This document shows, one piece after another, positions 32,105 to 58,284 of a stretch of 64,000 nucleotides of DNA. The stretch comes from Bdellovibrio sp. ZAP7 (GTDB lineage: Bacteria; Bdellovibrionota; Bdellovibrionia; Bdellovibrionales; Bdellovibrionaceae): positions 2,728,001 to 2,792,000 of the forward strand of contig NZ_CP030082.1 in the NCBI RefSeq assembly GCF_006874645.1, given 5' to 3'. Position numbers and translations under genes: made by a program. A model generated the notes under the pieces. It ran no database searches. It saw nothing but the letters and a program-made list of their open reading frames with translations, and was not told the origin of the DNA. Position 1 is the first letter of the stretch. The number at the start of each line of letters is the position of its first letter.

Positions 32105-32884
32105 TTAAACACTTTGCAAATTTTGACTGATAAGCCACTGACGAATCTGCTCTTGTTCATGGTCAGAGGTATCGACGAAATGGACTCGGATTTCGCTATG
32201 GCCAACAGCGATGACTTTGGCCTGACAAAGGATGCCGTCGATATCAGGAACCTCTACAGACAGCCTCTGGCCGACTTTAAACTTCTCTCGCGCTTGAAAT
32301 ACGGCGATGCGGGCCCCCGTATAGGACAAATCCAGGGTTTTACACTGATCCTTGCCCCCCAAAACAACGGGAATCCCCACATAATAACGATGGGCTGTTT
32401 GCCCCAACCAATGCTGGCGGCGATCCAAATCAGGGGATCTGGCAAAATACAGCCAGGCAATTCCGGCAACTACGATGGAGCTTACGATTTTAAAAGCAAA
32501 GGCCTCTGTCGCCAAAGGTGGCTCCTGAAAAAACATCAGATGCGAAAGATTGATCGCGATAAAAAGAGCGCACAGAACCAGGCCAACCAACCATAAGAGC
32601 TTGTGACGAATCAAAAAACTGACACCCGCCGCAAACACGACAAGCCAACCGATGATTTCAAGAGGCACAGTGGAGCCCGTGTGCATCGTGGTAAAATCCA
32701 TGACTGGGATCACCATTAAAATAAATGCCGCTGGCACAATCACCCATGGACCGTGTGTTATTCCCACTGTTTTTCTCATAGCTAACTTATCGGCATCACG
32801 AATGTGGGAATACAGTTTTTTTGTTGCTTCCCCGGCTGTTCTAAATAGACTGTTTAACTGTGAGACATCTATTAAAAATACCAT
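32105..32884 (-). CDS. Membrane protein with C-terminal PilZ-like domain
   Basis: Up to 259 residues. Four hydrophobic helices (about 45-62, 74-91, 95-112, 130-147) precede a PilZ-like beta-barrel (about 160-255): RYYVGIPVVL, then LDLSYTGARIAV, which fits the D-x-S-x-x-G part of the c-di-GMP site. The RxxxR arm before it is degenerate (RRQHWLGQTAHR). The start is doubtful: the ATG at 32884 overlaps the divergent gene by 25 bases and has no ribosome-binding site. The in-frame ATG at 32779 would remove 35 residues but keep all helices. c-di-GMP sensing at the membrane is inference. Confidence 0.75.
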   Translation of the reverse strand: MVFLIDVSQLNSLFRTAGEATKKLYSHIRDADKLAMRKTVGITHGPWVIVPAAFILMVIPVMDFTTMHTGSTVPLEIIGWLVVFAAGVSFLIRHKLLWLVGLVLCALFIAINLSHLMFFQEPPLATEAFAFKIVSSIVVAGIAWLYFARSPDLDRRQHWLGQTAHRYYVGIPVVLGGKDQCKTLDLSYTGARIAVFQAREKFKVGQRLSVEVPDIDGILCQAKVIAVGHSEIRVHFVDTSDHEQEQIRQWLISQNLQSV

Positions 32885-52228: not shown

Positions 52229-53134
52229 TTATTCTTTATCAGAGTCCGCTTCCGAATCGCTATCAGCAGCGACTTTCGCGCCCGATTTCATTTGCGCTTC
52301 TTCGTTCTTGTCATGGATGCGTTGCAATTTTTCGGCAGAAGTATCTTTTGATTTTGCAGCATCTTCCACCGCCGAGATCACGTTACCACCTTGGCTTGTT
52401 AGCATCAAAGTGCCATCACCAGTGACATCTTTGATCACATTCATATTAAGGATCGGAGCATCTACAACTTCACCCGCTGTATCCACACCCATTGTACCAA
52501 TACGGTTTTGACCTTTTAGAACCAGGCTGTTAGCAGCGACGTCTACTGCGCCAGCAGCCACCATGTTCACAAGGTTCACGCTATCTAAGATAAGTTTATC
52601 GGCTTTGATTGCAGCACTGATCGTTCTAAGACCTACGTTACCGCAGATAAAAACAACTTTCGCGGTCATTCTTACGGAAGTGGCGTCTTTAACGTCGCCC
52701 AACTCTTTTGCTGTCAAACCGTTCGTATACGTTTTATCGATTTGGTCTTCAGAGCAACCCACATTCAAGTATGTTGATTCAGTTTCAGCTTTTTCAACGT
52801 CAGTATCTTTTTGATTTTGATTTTGGCTCAAGCTGTCTTGTGGTTTTGCTGTGACTTCAGCAACTTTACCGTCCAAAGCCTTACCACCCATTAAATTCAA
52901 AGAGATACCTGATTTAAGAGTCTTCCCGCCTTTTTCAGCATCGTCGACGACAAGGACACCCATGATATTGACTTTGCCGGGTTGGCCACCTGGAAGAACT
53001 TTTGAAGAAACCTCGCCCGTAGGAGCGCCATCGTTATTCGCATGGAGAGCTACTTTACTTGCTTTATCATCTTTAACCGCGCAAGCAGCAAGACACATCA
53101 AAACAGCAGTTGCCAAGAGTTTAGAAATCTTCAT
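52229..53134 (-). CDS. Lipoprotein of unknown function
   Basis: The product has 301 residues from ATG 53134, fixed by GGAGG; the open frame to 53185 adds an unlikely basic leader. The signal ends LAAC (Cys18). The mature part begins polar (about 20-130), with a Gln/Asn/Lys patch (SQNQNQKDTD). A probable beta-helix-like stretch of short repeats follows (ISAAIKADKLILDSVNL; VAANSLVLKGQNRIG). It ends in an acidic Ser/Asp/Glu tail. Two cysteines (GCSEDQ; FICGNVG) may pair. No family is recognised. Confidence 0.75.
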   Translation of the reverse strand: MKISKLLATAVLMCLAACAVKDDKASKVALHANNDGAPTGEVSSKVLPGGQPGKVNIMGVLVVDDAEKGGKTLKSGISLNLMGGKALDGKVAEVTAKPQDSLSQNQNQKDTDVEKAETESTYLNVGCSEDQIDKTYTNGLTAKELGDVKDATSVRMTAKVVFICGNVGLRTISAAIKADKLILDSVNLVNMVAAGAVDVAANSLVLKGQNRIGTMGVDTAGEVVDAPILNMNVIKDVTGDGTLMLTSQGGNVISAVEDAAKSKDTSAEKLQRIHDKNEEAQMKSGAKVAADSDSEADSDKE

Positions 53135-53295
53135 GAATGGCCTCCTTAACAAGGCGAAATAATACTTCCACCCCTTATTCAGCAAGATCCACTCCAGGCG
53201 GTTCAGCGACTCAGCTGGAACTGTTTTGATTTGAGAAAAAAGAACGACCCTCTAACGTCACCCGGTGACATTTATGGGCGCCAATTTTAGAAGAC

Positions 53296-54128: not shown

Positions 54129-54161
54129 AAAAAAAGAGGCGCTTTATTCAAGCGCCTCTTT
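54129..54161 (-). terminator. Intrinsic terminator of the subtilisin-PilZ gene
   Basis: AAAGAGGCGCTT (54133-54144) and AAGCGCCTCTTT (54150-54161) form a perfect 12-bp stem with a five-base loop. The A-run at 54129-54135 gives the U-tract on the minus-strand transcript. Confidence 0.92.
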
Positions 54162-54188: not shown

Positions 54189-56093
54189 TTATGATTTCAC
54201 AAGATTAGCAGTCCATTGTTGAATCATAGCCAAAGTTCCCTGCTTCGCATTGGCGAATTGGACACCGTATGCTTGATTTGCTTCGCTCCACACGACTTGA
54301 CCCTGAACCTCGATGACCTCGTTGCCATCTGGGCTTTGGATACGCATCGTAATGATGCCGCCTTTTTCCAGAGCCTGATCGGTGTTGAATGACAGACCAC
54401 CTTGAGAGATGGAGTTCATTGAACCAACCAGCTCGCGATCGCCGACCATTACTTTGATCGATGATTGCATTTTGAAGCGCTCGTAGCGACGTTTGTTTTT
54501 CGGATCGTTTGCCATCGCACGCTGGCGAAGGACGAACCACACCGCCATCGGAAGCATCATCAAACCAAAGACCACACCGGCAGTTGGATTTGCGCCGCCT
54601 GCACCTGGGCCGCCATTAATAGCTGTCGTCACCAAACCACAACCTGTCGCGCCACCTGCTGACTCAGCTGATGCCGGATAACGACTTGCAGAGTACACGT
54701 AGCTTGGTTGAGAAGCTGTCTCCCCGTGACTTGCTTGAACCGCCGTAATCAACTTCGCAGAGTCAATACGACCACTTGTTGAAACGTAGTTTGCAAGACC
54801 TGCAATCACGTCAACATTGGCAAAAAGTTTTTGCTTAATCTGGTAACCCGTCAATTGCGGTTCTTCACGAAGCGCCAACGCTGCTACACCGGCAACAAAC
54901 GGAGATGCCATAGAGGTACCAGACATATAGTTATAACCGCCACCTGGAACGGTACTTAGGATACTTTCACCCGGGCTTGCAATATGAACTGTGTTTTTAC
55001 CATAGTTCGAGAATGAAGAGCGAGTATCAGAAGAACCCACGGATGCAACCGAGATTACACTTGGAAGATCGTAGTTCGCTGGATACATCGGCACGCTGTC
55101 ATTGTTACTGTTATAGTTACCTGCCGCATTGACGATCAAAATACCATTGTTATAAGCCGCCGTCAGAGAATCCAACAACGCTTTAGAGAAGTTTGATCCC
55201 CCCCAAGAGTTATTGATAACCTGCGCGCCGTTATTCACGGCATAGTCGATCGCTTTGATCGCTGTGGCCGTTGTCCCCGTCCCATCAGCAGCCAAAGACT
55301 TCACTGGCATAATCACGATTTTTGATTCAGGCAAAGGACGTTGGAAGATATTAAGACCTGCACCCACAACGATACCCGACACGTGAGTACCGTGGTTGTT
55401 GTCGTCATTTACGTTGGGAGAGTTCGAGACGAAGTTCCAACCATTGATATCATCGACGAAACCATTTCCGTCATCGTCATAACCTGGTGTTCCGTTAGCT
55501 TCAGCCGTATTCACCCACAAAGCGCCCGAACCACCCGTACCATCTGCTTTATACGCTTTAAATACCGGATGCGTGCGATCAAGACCGGAGTCGACAACCG
55601 CCACGATGACTTTATTACTATTAGTGGAAAGTGATGTTGAAATATTCCAGGCACTTGTCACGGCCGTGTTATTTACAACCGTATTTGAAAACTGTGAATA
55701 AGACGTCGAATTCGTAGAAACCCAATTGTTGGTTACCAACGTTTGCAAAGCATAACCTTGGGAAGCGTATTCGGAATAAGAAGTCTGACCAGCCGACCAA
55801 ATATAGTTAGGCTCTACGTACTCAATATCTGGATCTTGCTTAAGATCTTCAACCTCTTGAGAAGCCGTCGCCAAAGAACGAACAGAAACGTGATACATAC
55901 CTAAACGGCTGTAAGCACCTTTCATAGTGACTCTTTGCGCAAGTCTTGAACGAACGCCTTGTTGGTTTACACCCGTTGAACTGTTACGCACTTTCACGAT
56001 GTATTCGCCCGGAACAACAGTCGACATCTGTGCGAATGCTGCTCCACTGAATGCTACGAACGAGGCAATGAAACCTAATATAATGCGTTTCAC
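54189..56093 (-). CDS. Exported subtilisin protease with C-terminal transmembrane helix and PilZ domain
   Basis: The product has 634 residues. Signal peptide (1-21), inhibitor-I9-like propeptide (about 26-98, ending DIEYVEPNY), then a subtilisin domain. Its triad is Asp168 (VVDSGLD), His234 (NHGTHVSG) and Ser394 (SGTSMASPFVAG), with oxyanion Asn326 (NAAGN). A DxDxDG-type acidic loop (YDDDGNGFVDD, 205-215) suggests Ca2+. A Gly-rich region with GATGCG (about 481-486) leads to a helix (about 503-524) and an RQR stop. Residues 535-630 form a PilZ domain: RRYER (Arg535, Arg539) and SISQGG (Ser561, Ser563, Gly566), where the usual Asp/Asn is Ser. The domain should face the cytoplasm, giving a possible c-di-GMP link. 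Flanked by a strong terminator. Confidence 0.9.
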   Translation of the reverse strand: MKRIILGFIASFVAFSGAAFAQMSTVVPGEYIVKVRNSSTGVNQQGVRSRLAQRVTMKGAYSRLGMYHVSVRSLATASQEVEDLKQDPDIEYVEPNYIWSAGQTSYSEYASQGYALQTLVTNNWVSTNSTSYSQFSNTVVNNTAVTSAWNISTSLSTNSNKVIVAVVDSGLDRTHPVFKAYKADGTGGSGALWVNTAEANGTPGYDDDGNGFVDDINGWNFVSNSPNVNDDNNHGTHVSGIVVGAGLNIFQRPLPESKIVIMPVKSLAADGTGTTATAIKAIDYAVNNGAQVINNSWGGSNFSKALLDSLTAAYNNGILIVNAAGNYNSNNDSVPMYPANYDLPSVISVASVGSSDTRSSFSNYGKNTVHIASPGESILSTVPGGGYNYMSGTSMASPFVAGVAALALREEPQLTGYQIKQKLFANVDVIAGLANYVSTSGRIDSAKLITAVQASHGETASQPSYVYSASRYPASAESAGGATGCGLVTTAINGGPGAGGANPTAGVVFGLMMLPMAVWFVLRQRAMANDPKNKRRYERFKMQSSIKVMVGDRELVGSMNSISQGGLSFNTDQALEKGGIITMRIQSPDGNEVIEVQGQVVWSEANQAYGVQFANAKQGTLAMIQQWTANLVKS

Positions 56094-56269
56094 GGTTTCT
56101 CCTTAAGAAATTGACCCTTAACTATTCGGTAAATGGTCTAGGAAAGATGAGTAGAAATGCGCATTATTTAGAGGCCCATTTTGAGACAAGCGTAAGGCCT
56201 TGAAGCAACTGGCCTTCCCTGATATTAATTTTTTACCGATACAAAGAGAGACAAAAGGACCATCCAGCT

Positions 56270-56878
56270 ATGAAACAGCTTCAGAAAATTTTCTTGCAAG
56301 GGCTCGTAACTTTCCTGCCCATCGCACTTACGATTTACATCATCTATGCTGGTGTCTCTATCGTGGATAGCATCCTCGGGGATGCCCTTCGCCAAGTGAT
56401 GCCAGTGTATATTCCTGGCTTGGGTTTCTTACTGACGATCGTTTTGATCTTCTTTTTGGGCTTCCTTCTGAATAACCTTTTGGCTGCGGGTCTTTTTCAC
56501 AAACTTGAACAAAAGATGACTCAGGTTCCCTTGTTCAAAGCCGTTTACAGTCCCCTGCGCGATTTGATGAATATGTTCTCAAAAAGCGGCGGTCCCGGTG
56601 GTGCTATGCAAACCGTGGTTTTGGTTGATATCGCTGAATCAGGTATCCGTGCCATGGGTTTGGTCACTCGCGAAAGCTTTTCTGACATTCCTGCGATCCA
56701 AGCTCAAGCCAATGACCACGTATCTGTGTATATTCCGATGAGTTATGGTTTGGGTGGTTTCACTCTTCTGGTGCCTCGTAACCGCATCACGCCAATCGAC
56801 ATCCCGATTGAACGAGCGATGAGCCTGGCTATTACGGGTTGGGTCAAAGCAGATAAGCACGAGGGAGACAAGTCATGA
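56270..56878 (+). CDS. DUF502-family membrane protein
   Basis: The product has 202 residues. Two transmembrane helices (about 8-30 and 49-72) enclose a short loop. A soluble beta-rich domain follows, with the family phrases PLFKAVYSPLRDLMNMF and FTLLVPRNRITPIDI, the latter resembling the conserved TxPNP-type region. DUF502 proteins are widespread and their role is unknown; a membrane-stress role has been suggested only loosely. The gene overlaps the next by four bases (ATGA). Confidence 0.85.
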   Translation: MKQLQKIFLQGLVTFLPIALTIYIIYAGVSIVDSILGDALRQVMPVYIPGLGFLLTIVLIFFLGFLLNNLLAAGLFHKLEQKMTQVPLFKAVYSPLRDLMNMFSKSGGPGGAMQTVVLVDIAESGIRAMGLVTRESFSDIPAIQAQANDHVSVYIPMSYGLGGFTLLVPRNRITPIDIPIERAMSLAITGWVKADKHEGDKS

Positions 56879-58284
56879 GCGATGCATCTTGCGCTACCAC
56901 TGTCAGCAAAGCTCTTAAAATCAACAACGACCTGACTCGCTATGGGGCTTTTGCCGAGATTGGTGCGGGTCAAGAAGTGGCACGTCACTTTTTCCAAGCC
57001 GGTATGGCGTCGCAGACTATTGCGAAAACTATTTCTGCCTATGACATGATCGTCAGCGACGAAATCTATGGCCGTGAAGCCCATGGTCGCTATGTTTGTG
57101 AATCCCGTTTAGAAAAAATGCTCGATCACGAGTATAAACTTTTGATTGAACGTCTGAGTGGCCCGCGTGGCGGCAAAACTTGTTTCTTTTCTTTCGCCTC
57201 CACTGTGGCAACGGCCTCCGTTGGATCAAGCAAGCAATCCCATGGTTGGATTGGGGTTCGCTTTCAAGCGACTCCTGGCGGTCCCGCAAATGAAATCATC
57301 CTGCATGTGCGCATGCTGGATCGTCACCGCCTGCAACAACAAGAGTCTTTGGGCATCTTGGGTGTAAATCTGATTTTCAGTGCTTTCTATGATTTGGCTG
57401 ACACCGAAAACTTCATTCCGCAATTGGTGGAAAACCTTAAAGAAGGCCAAGTTGTTATCGACGTGATTAAATTCCAAGGCCCGGCTGTTGCTCACTTTGA
57501 CAACCGCCTGATGAACCTGGAACTGGTTCACCGTGGCTTGGCTGAAGCGATCATGTTCTCTCCTAAAAACGAGATACTGAATGTTTCAGATGCGATCTAT
57601 GGCAAAGCCCTTCTTATTCAGCGTGGGACCTTCCGCCCGGTTACGACAACTCATATTGATGTGATCCAAAAAGGCATGGTGCAAATGCGTGCCGACGTCA
57701 AAGCGATGGAAGGCAAAGACATTGAGGTTCTGCCGATCATGGAAATGACGATGCACAATTTGATGACCGATGGAGATGTCGACGAGACCGACTTTCTGCA
57801 AAGAGTGGAAACGCTGACGAGCCTGGGTTTTCATGTGATGATTTCTAATTTCCGTTTATTCTATACGTTGAAAAGATTCATTCGTCGCTACAATCAAAAC
57901 ATGCTGGCTTTGATTATTGGTGCTTCTCACTTGGAAAAGCTTTTCCAGGAATCTCACTATCAAAATCTGGAAGGCGGCTTACTTGAAGGTTTAGGCAAAC
58001 TGATGGAACAAAAGACCAAAGTTTACGTCTACCCTCACAAGACGGCACAAATGTGTATGACGACGAAAAGCTTCTTCCCGCCGAACAACCTACGCCACAT
58101 CTATGCTTACTTCGTGGAAAGTAAGCAGATTGTGGACGTATCTGGTTGCGACGAAACAGCGGATTACCTGCATTCTGGCGACGTCATGAAAATGATGAGC
58201 TCCCAAGATTCCCGCTGGGAGCAGTTCGTTCCGGAAAAAGTAGTTACCGCGATTAAATCGCGAAAACTGTTCGGCTATAAATAA
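56875..58284 (+). CDS. Conserved hypothetical protein found widely in bacteria
   Basis: The product has 469 residues, cytoplasmic, no signal or helices of membrane type. The N-terminus KINNDLTRYGAFAEIGAGQEVARHFF, quoted as RYGAFAEIGAGQEVARHF, followed by ISAYDMIVSDEIYG, is a highly conserved start that I recall from proteins annotated variously as hypothetical, TonB-box-like or nucleotide adenylyltransferase-like. A Lys/Arg/Cys-containing segment lies near residue 98-102 (GGKTCFF). I do not trust any of these annotations. It is coupled by ATGA to the DUF502 gene, so a membrane-associated job is possible. Confidence 0.75.
   Translation: MSDASCATTVSKALKINNDLTRYGAFAEIGAGQEVARHFFQAGMASQTIAKTISAYDMIVSDEIYGREAHGRYVCESRLEKMLDHEYKLLIERLSGPRGGKTCFFSFASTVATASVGSSKQSHGWIGVRFQATPGGPANEIILHVRMLDRHRLQQQESLGILGVNLIFSAFYDLADTENFIPQLVENLKEGQVVIDVIKFQGPAVAHFDNRLMNLELVHRGLAEAIMFSPKNEILNVSDAIYGKALLIQRGTFRPVTTTHIDVIQKGMVQMRADVKAMEGKDIEVLPIMEMTMHNLMTDGDVDETDFLQRVETLTSLGFHVMISNFRLFYTLKRFIRRYNQNMLALIIGASHLEKLFQESHYQNLEGGLLEGLGKLMEQKTKVYVYPHKTAQMCMTTKSFFPPNNLRHIYAYFVESKQIVDVSGCDETADYLHSGDVMKMMSSQDSRWEQFVPEKVVTAIKSRKLFGYK

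Follow-up and report, generated by a model that had tools for sequence, protein, structure and literature searches.

The window analysed here is the whole stretch of 64,000 nucleotides at positions 2728001–2792000 of the complete 4.12 Mb genome of Bdellovibrio sp. ZAP7. One of its genes encodes a chain in which an S8 protease is followed by a single transmembrane helix and a C-terminal PilZ domain (Table 1). According to Pfam, the chain carries Peptidase_S8 at residues 160–426 (E 4.6e-51), a Fervidolysin-type prodomain at residues 27–96 (E 1.1e-4) and PilZ at residues 533–628 (E 1.9e-18; 67 bits against a curated cut-off of 22.5), the last being the top scorer among the 14 PilZ matches of the genome. 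Apart from the signal peptide, hydropathy analysis gives a single helix. The original prediction had read a complete catalytic triad, a propeptide, a single hydrophobic helix at 503–524 and the PilZ motifs RRYER and SISQGG from this chain, and each of these was borne out; the motifs correspond to R535/R539 and S561–G566, and the triad D168/H234/S394 is accompanied by the oxyanion residue N326. We regard the S8–TM–PilZ architecture as confirmed, in one real chain.

Table 1. Features of the S8–PilZ locus (positions in the window).
Feature	Position	Strand	Basis or remark
Whole gene, S8 protease–TM–PilZ	54189..56093	(-)	Single chain, 634 aa, GTG start
Ribosome-binding site AAGGAG	56099..56104	(-)	5 nt upstream of GTG; kept in close relatives
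Signal peptide, residues 1–21, MKRIILGFIASFVAFSGAAFA	56031..56093	(-)	Sequence and hydropathy
Propeptide region, residues 22–140	55674..56030	(-)	Fervidolysin prodomain / weak Inhibitor_I9 match
Peptidase_S8 catalytic domain, residues 160–426; D168, H234, N326, S394	54816..55616	(-)	Pfam and alignment
Gly-Cys-Gly motif, residues 484–486	54636..54644	(-)	Alignment; C485 54/54
Transmembrane helix 503–524, invariant Pro515, Arg/Lys-rich cytoplasmic side (predicted)	54522..54587	(-)	Hydropathy, alignment
PilZ domain, residues 533–628	54210..54497	(-)	Pfam
PilZ first motif RxxxR (R535, R539)	54477..54491	(-)	54/54
PilZ second motif SISQGG, residues 561–566	54396..54413	(-)	Family form [S/T]xSxGG
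Intrinsic-terminator-like hairpin and T run, 3' of the S8–PilZ gene	54133..54161	(-)	
Divergent neighbour, DUF502 (PF04367) gene	56270..56878	(+)	Adjoins orthologue in 34 compared loci

The terminator-like hairpin lies between the S8–PilZ gene and the downstream SDR gene, so the S8–PilZ gene is probably transcribed alone. A sigma-70 promoter scan for this gene gave a result no better than that from shuffled sequences.

Conservation, topology and the PilZ motifs

A full-length S8–TM–PilZ copy was found in 54 of 59 genomes (ZAP7 included), with 39–100% identity and no internal stops. The phylum was surveyed with an even sample of 290 genomes, in which 87 of the 96 from the order Bdellovibrionales have one full-length copy each. 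The tail is present in 49 of the 51 genomes from the same family as ZAP7 and in 38 of the 45 that represent the rest of the order; a sister order within the same class adds two genomes. Tail-bearing genes in this sample are nearly all open frames of about 600–700 codons, and every strong tail match is the only one in its genome. No full-length S8–TM–PilZ was found elsewhere in the phylum among the 290 sampled genomes, the other six matches being short generic PilZ matches. Both exceptions within the family are draft genomes, in one of which (G287) the gene runs off the contig end, and the seven further exceptions in the order are small genomes (1.2–2.1 Mb) of one family. A search of genome contigs returned seven loci, all from the Bdellovibrio group and none outside it. 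The search among relatives that had been proposed with the original prediction thus finds the architecture to be near-universal in the order, and the suggestion that it might not be conserved is rejected. We found no point in favour of the idea that an assembly error or frameshift had artificially joined two genes, and it has practically no chance of being correct, as the architecture is seen in 54 aligned genomes from about ten families with no internal stops. The fusion is also not a chance one, because its PilZ domain is the best of those in the genome and the full-length arrangement recurs across the order at 39–97% identity.

The different parts of the chain are conserved to very different extents: all-pairs identity is highest in the S8 domain (59%), followed by PilZ (52%), and is lowest in the helix (31%) and the spacer (28%). 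Two within-genus pairs were informative, and in each dN is lower for PilZ than for S8 (0.013 versus 0.040 and 0.041 versus 0.117), and dN/dS is 0.05 or less, with dS near saturation in places. The PilZ domain is under strong purifying selection.

All four catalytic residues of the protease (D168, H234, N326 and S394) are invariant in the 54 aligned full-length orthologues, and the presence of triad and oxyanion Asn in an S8 fold (PF00082) places the domain in peptidase family S8. Its closest solved structure is that of deseasin MCP-01 (PDB entry 3vv3). Most residues of a D/N-rich insert at 206–215 (DDDGNGFVDD) are also invariant among the orthologues, and this insert is probably a calcium site.

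The 15 residues before the helix have a mean net charge of +0.4 and the 15 after it +4.9, and this asymmetry gives an N-out/C-in orientation by the positive-inside rule in 53 of the 54 orthologues. It supports the predicted topology, already put forward in the original prediction, in which the protease would be exported and the PilZ domain cytoplasmic. An AlphaFold model built from seven sequences shows one helix (505–528) and PilZ-like strands; its confidence is low (mean pLDDT of 45), and it gives no view of coupling.

Within the PilZ domain R535, R539, S563, G565 and G566 are invariant (54/54), so that every canonical binding residue is fixed in the family except at position 561. Canonical PilZ domains have Asp or Asn at the equivalent position (PMC11800159), giving a [D/N]xSxxG motif; here the S and G are kept in all 54 orthologues, while the first position is Thr in 33, Ser in 19, Asp in one and Cys in one. 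The Ser in place of Asp/Asn that had been pointed out in the ZAP7 protein is therefore real, but it is a family trait and not a lesion of one copy, since 52 of the 54 have Ser or Thr. Two other PilZ proteins of the genome (L002 and L005) also have Ser at the equivalent position. The tail scores well above the PilZ profile cut-off and has the RxxxR motif; searched against solved structures, its profile finds PilZ proteins as the closest matches, the first being YpfA from B. subtilis (5vx6), a weak match (E 0.0012) whose alignment with the tail covers RxxxR and S..GG. We consider it very unlikely that this PilZ domain has lost c-di-GMP binding and serves as a structural cap or stabilizer of the membrane protease: the substitution at 561 and the dispensability of PilZ in some lineages (see below) would fit such a role, but retention of both Arg residues and of the S, G and G in every orthologue is not expected after ligand loss.

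Gene neighbourhood

The 34 loci in which a DUF502 gene adjoins the orthologue all belong to the family of ZAP7, a few being duplicates of one genome. In this family the S8–PilZ gene is divergent from the DUF502 gene, which is followed by the gene for a 469-aa protein (56875–58284, plus strand in ZAP7); this protein has no Pfam match and is kept beside the other two genes in 33 loci of the family. In the other families and the sister order the gene mostly lies behind a gene for a membrane PpiD/SurA-type PPIase, which shares its strand in 13 of the 17 loci outside the family, and in several loci of other families mreC (mreC/mreD-type genes) is found nearby, beyond the PPIase gene. A PpiD/SurA-type neighbour fits a periplasmic, membrane-proximal job. 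These neighbours would also suit a PilZ domain that acts as a localizer, placing the membrane protease at a pole or an envelope machine with or without c-di-GMP and leaving catalysis unaltered, and there are PilZ domains that do not bind c-di-GMP and work via partner proteins instead (PMC11800159). The invariant RxxxR and S.GG positions point to ligand binding and not to a pure adaptor, however, and we judge the localizer reading unlikely.

The window holds a second PilZ gene at 32129–32392 (minus strand; L012), within a 260-codon frame with several hydrophobic stretches ahead of PilZ and a second motif of canonical type (DLSYTG). It is probably the counterpart of Bd2524. The PilZ genes Bd2524 and Bd2545 are reported to be down-regulated at the end of the attack phase (PMC2797640). 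One S8–TM–PilZ gene is found at 2454661–2456547 in G006, another genome of this genus, and about 20 ORFs separate it from a further PilZ gene. This spacing fits Bd2524 and Bd2545; if these are the two genes, the S8–PilZ gene is probably Bd2545 and an attack-phase gene, an assignment made from spacing only. Also in the window, at 52229–53185 (minus strand), is a 318-aa orphan with a lipoprotein-like start and no Pfam match, which recurs as a neighbour of the S8–PilZ gene only in L016 and L018. Two short frames elsewhere in the ZAP7 genome (L129 and L130, at G000:C1:3426018 and 2693467) have similar translations (FRDTPS.LTVA.F.GSRI.RRRRSLH) and are perhaps an interspersed repeat.

The anchor segment and relatives without PilZ

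The feature that is new here is the segment that precedes PilZ, in which an invariant Gly-Cys-Gly is followed first by a variable spacer and then by a helix whose proline is also invariant. Gly-Cys-Gly is 99% identical and is flanked by stretches of about 30% identity, and C485, the sole Cys of the ZAP7 protein, is present in all orthologues. Three relatives that lack PilZ end at this point, just past the helix and its basic residues: L069 (in G039), L072 (a second copy in G016) and L105 (in G148). All three fall among the PilZ-bearing proteins in a tree of the S8 core: L072 pairs with L046, which is from another family (support 0.87), and L105 pairs with L104 (0.68), the position of L069 being unresolved. 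As L105 still has next to it the PpiD-type gene that adjoins its PilZ-bearing kin, we take it to be an orthologue after PilZ loss; G039 is an apparent case of the same loss with protease and anchor retained. PilZ has thus probably been lost more than once while Cys, spacer, helix and Arg-rich stretch were kept. Because this segment stayed where PilZ was lost, and because the relatives end exactly there, it appears to have a role of its own and to be a unit of its own; the protease can evidently persist without PilZ. Loss of PilZ together with c-di-GMP signalling was considered and rejected, since G039 and G148 both retain GGDEF and PilZ genes. No PilZ remnant was found downstream of L072 (G016:C9:51851-53302), and as the tree groups this extra copy with another family, horizontal transfer is possible.

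The order of an invariant Cys, a helix and an Arg-rich stretch is also that of the MYXO-CTERM tag, which is associated with the myxosortase MrtX (PMC11980579). The segment may accordingly be a processing or sorting tag, cut by a membrane protease at or near the Gly-Cys-Gly or the helix, with C485 lipidated or not. The cut would detach the subtilase from both the membrane and PilZ, and PilZ would gate or time release and not act as an allosteric driver. We hold this reading to be rather unlikely overall, although a cut inside or beside the helix is a live possibility because the PilZ-less relatives keep Gly-Cys-Gly and the Pro-helix as their C-terminus. The near-invariance of the motif, together with the invariance of C485 and of the helix Pro, is in line with a tag, as is the tripartite MYXO-CTERM layout (PMC11980579) of L069, L072 and L105. 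A sister-order S8 protease without PilZ (L126; G273:C17:57240-58193) has a plain sorting-tag-like end, GCGKSSSQSSEGIPTAMVGLALPFALGAILRRRKK, with the layout GCG...TM...RRRKK. On the other side, no tail reaches the cut-off of a curated CTERM model (the best is TIGR03901 with E 0.011, in one of 28 tails), and TIGR03382 gave only noise below cut-off across 18 genomes. A tail profile search found no second protein with the tail in the ZAP7 genome, compared with typically dozens per genome for MYXO-CTERM. The single CPBP protein of this genome has no match to the MrtX model NF040593 at E<=0.01, and its three rhomboids are all below the curated rhombosortase cut-off. A MYXO-CTERM tag stands at the extreme C-terminus, whereas here PilZ follows and only the three PilZ-less relatives end at the tag. 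By its sequence the segment looks sorting-tag-like, but not a MYXO-CTERM member.

Proposed mechanism and relation to known systems

Our preferred reading, to which we give an even chance, is that, within one chain, the binding of c-di-GMP to PilZ determines how active a periplasmic protease is, where it sits or whether it is released. The subtilase would be exported via Sec and matured by propeptide removal, probably in a calcium-dependent manner, and the one helix would anchor it in the inner membrane with the catalytic domain in the periplasm. We infer that c-di-GMP is a ligand of the cytoplasmic PilZ domain, held by R535/R539 and the [S/T]xSxGG loop. The bound ligand would alter the state of the chain, either by making PilZ dock onto the membrane or onto partners or by a change in oligomeric state, and this altered state would control the protease in whichever direction. 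Substrates may be envelope proteins of the predator or periplasmic proteins of the prey during invasion. Diguanylate cyclase domains are present in the genomes tested. The non-canonical start of the second PilZ motif speaks against c-di-GMP control, as does retention of protease and anchor without PilZ in G148 and apparently in G039. Allosteric activation, relocation and gated release are not distinguishable from the present data. The specific form in which cutting of the Gly-Cys-Gly/Pro-helix segment by a membrane protease depends on the state of PilZ is, in our estimate, quite improbable; if true, an intracellular second messenger would free or withhold the subtilase, at the surface or in the periplasm, at one particular stage of the attack on prey, by way of a sorting-type tag seen in only one protein of the ZAP7 genome.

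Several known systems share parts of this arrangement. The mycosins (MycP) are exported S8 proteases held by a C-terminal helix; they are without PilZ and are part of type VII secretion, and the S8–PilZ protein scores 128 bits against the mycosin model TIGR03921, below its cut-off of 278.75. Alg44 and BcsA likewise have PilZ on the cytoplasmic face of a membrane protein, and in Alg44 the periplasmic part belongs to the PilZ-bearing chain, but both serve polysaccharide synthesis and have no protease. LIC_20173 of Leptospira (PrsW-PilZ) combines a membrane protease with a PilZ-type domain (PMC12943098), a pairing that is likewise only predicted; it differs in being an intramembrane metalloprotease with a non-canonical PilZ and no exported catalytic domain.

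The domain pair itself was tabulated in 2008 as ‘Subt-PilZ’ (NP_969350.1 of Bdellovibrio bacteriovorus) under ‘Signalling’, with no function given (PMC2605481). This Bdellovibrio protein combines the same two domains and is very probably the orthologue of the ZAP7 protein; the entry is a table row, without topology, conservation, Cys–TM motif or mechanism. We found no functional study of S8–PilZ in the open literature, and c-di-GMP binding may already have been measured elsewhere. The protein is real, conserved and, as far as the open literature shows, uncharacterized. Few outputs are known for the roughly 15 PilZ receptors of B. bacteriovorus, and the choice of this species between predation and axenic growth is set by c-di-GMP (PMC3271064); a single chain, conserved order-wide, that unites receptor and protease would be a direct c-di-GMP output that can be tested by point mutants.

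The original prediction named no established system for inside-to-outside control of an exported protease, which was an overstatement given the 2008 table and LapD/LapG, for which it is established that c-di-GMP inside the cell controls a protease in the periplasm (PMC3032545, PMC3032553). In LapD/LapG cytoplasmic c-di-GMP sensing governs the protease, as is only proposed for S8–PilZ, but two proteins are involved: a sensor with a degenerate EAL-type domain and the cysteine protease LapG. The LapG family (PF06035) was found in none of six genomes tested, so this route does not compete here. If our preferred reading is true, S8–PilZ would be a case of inside-out control of proteolysis by a single protein, where LapD/LapG uses two.
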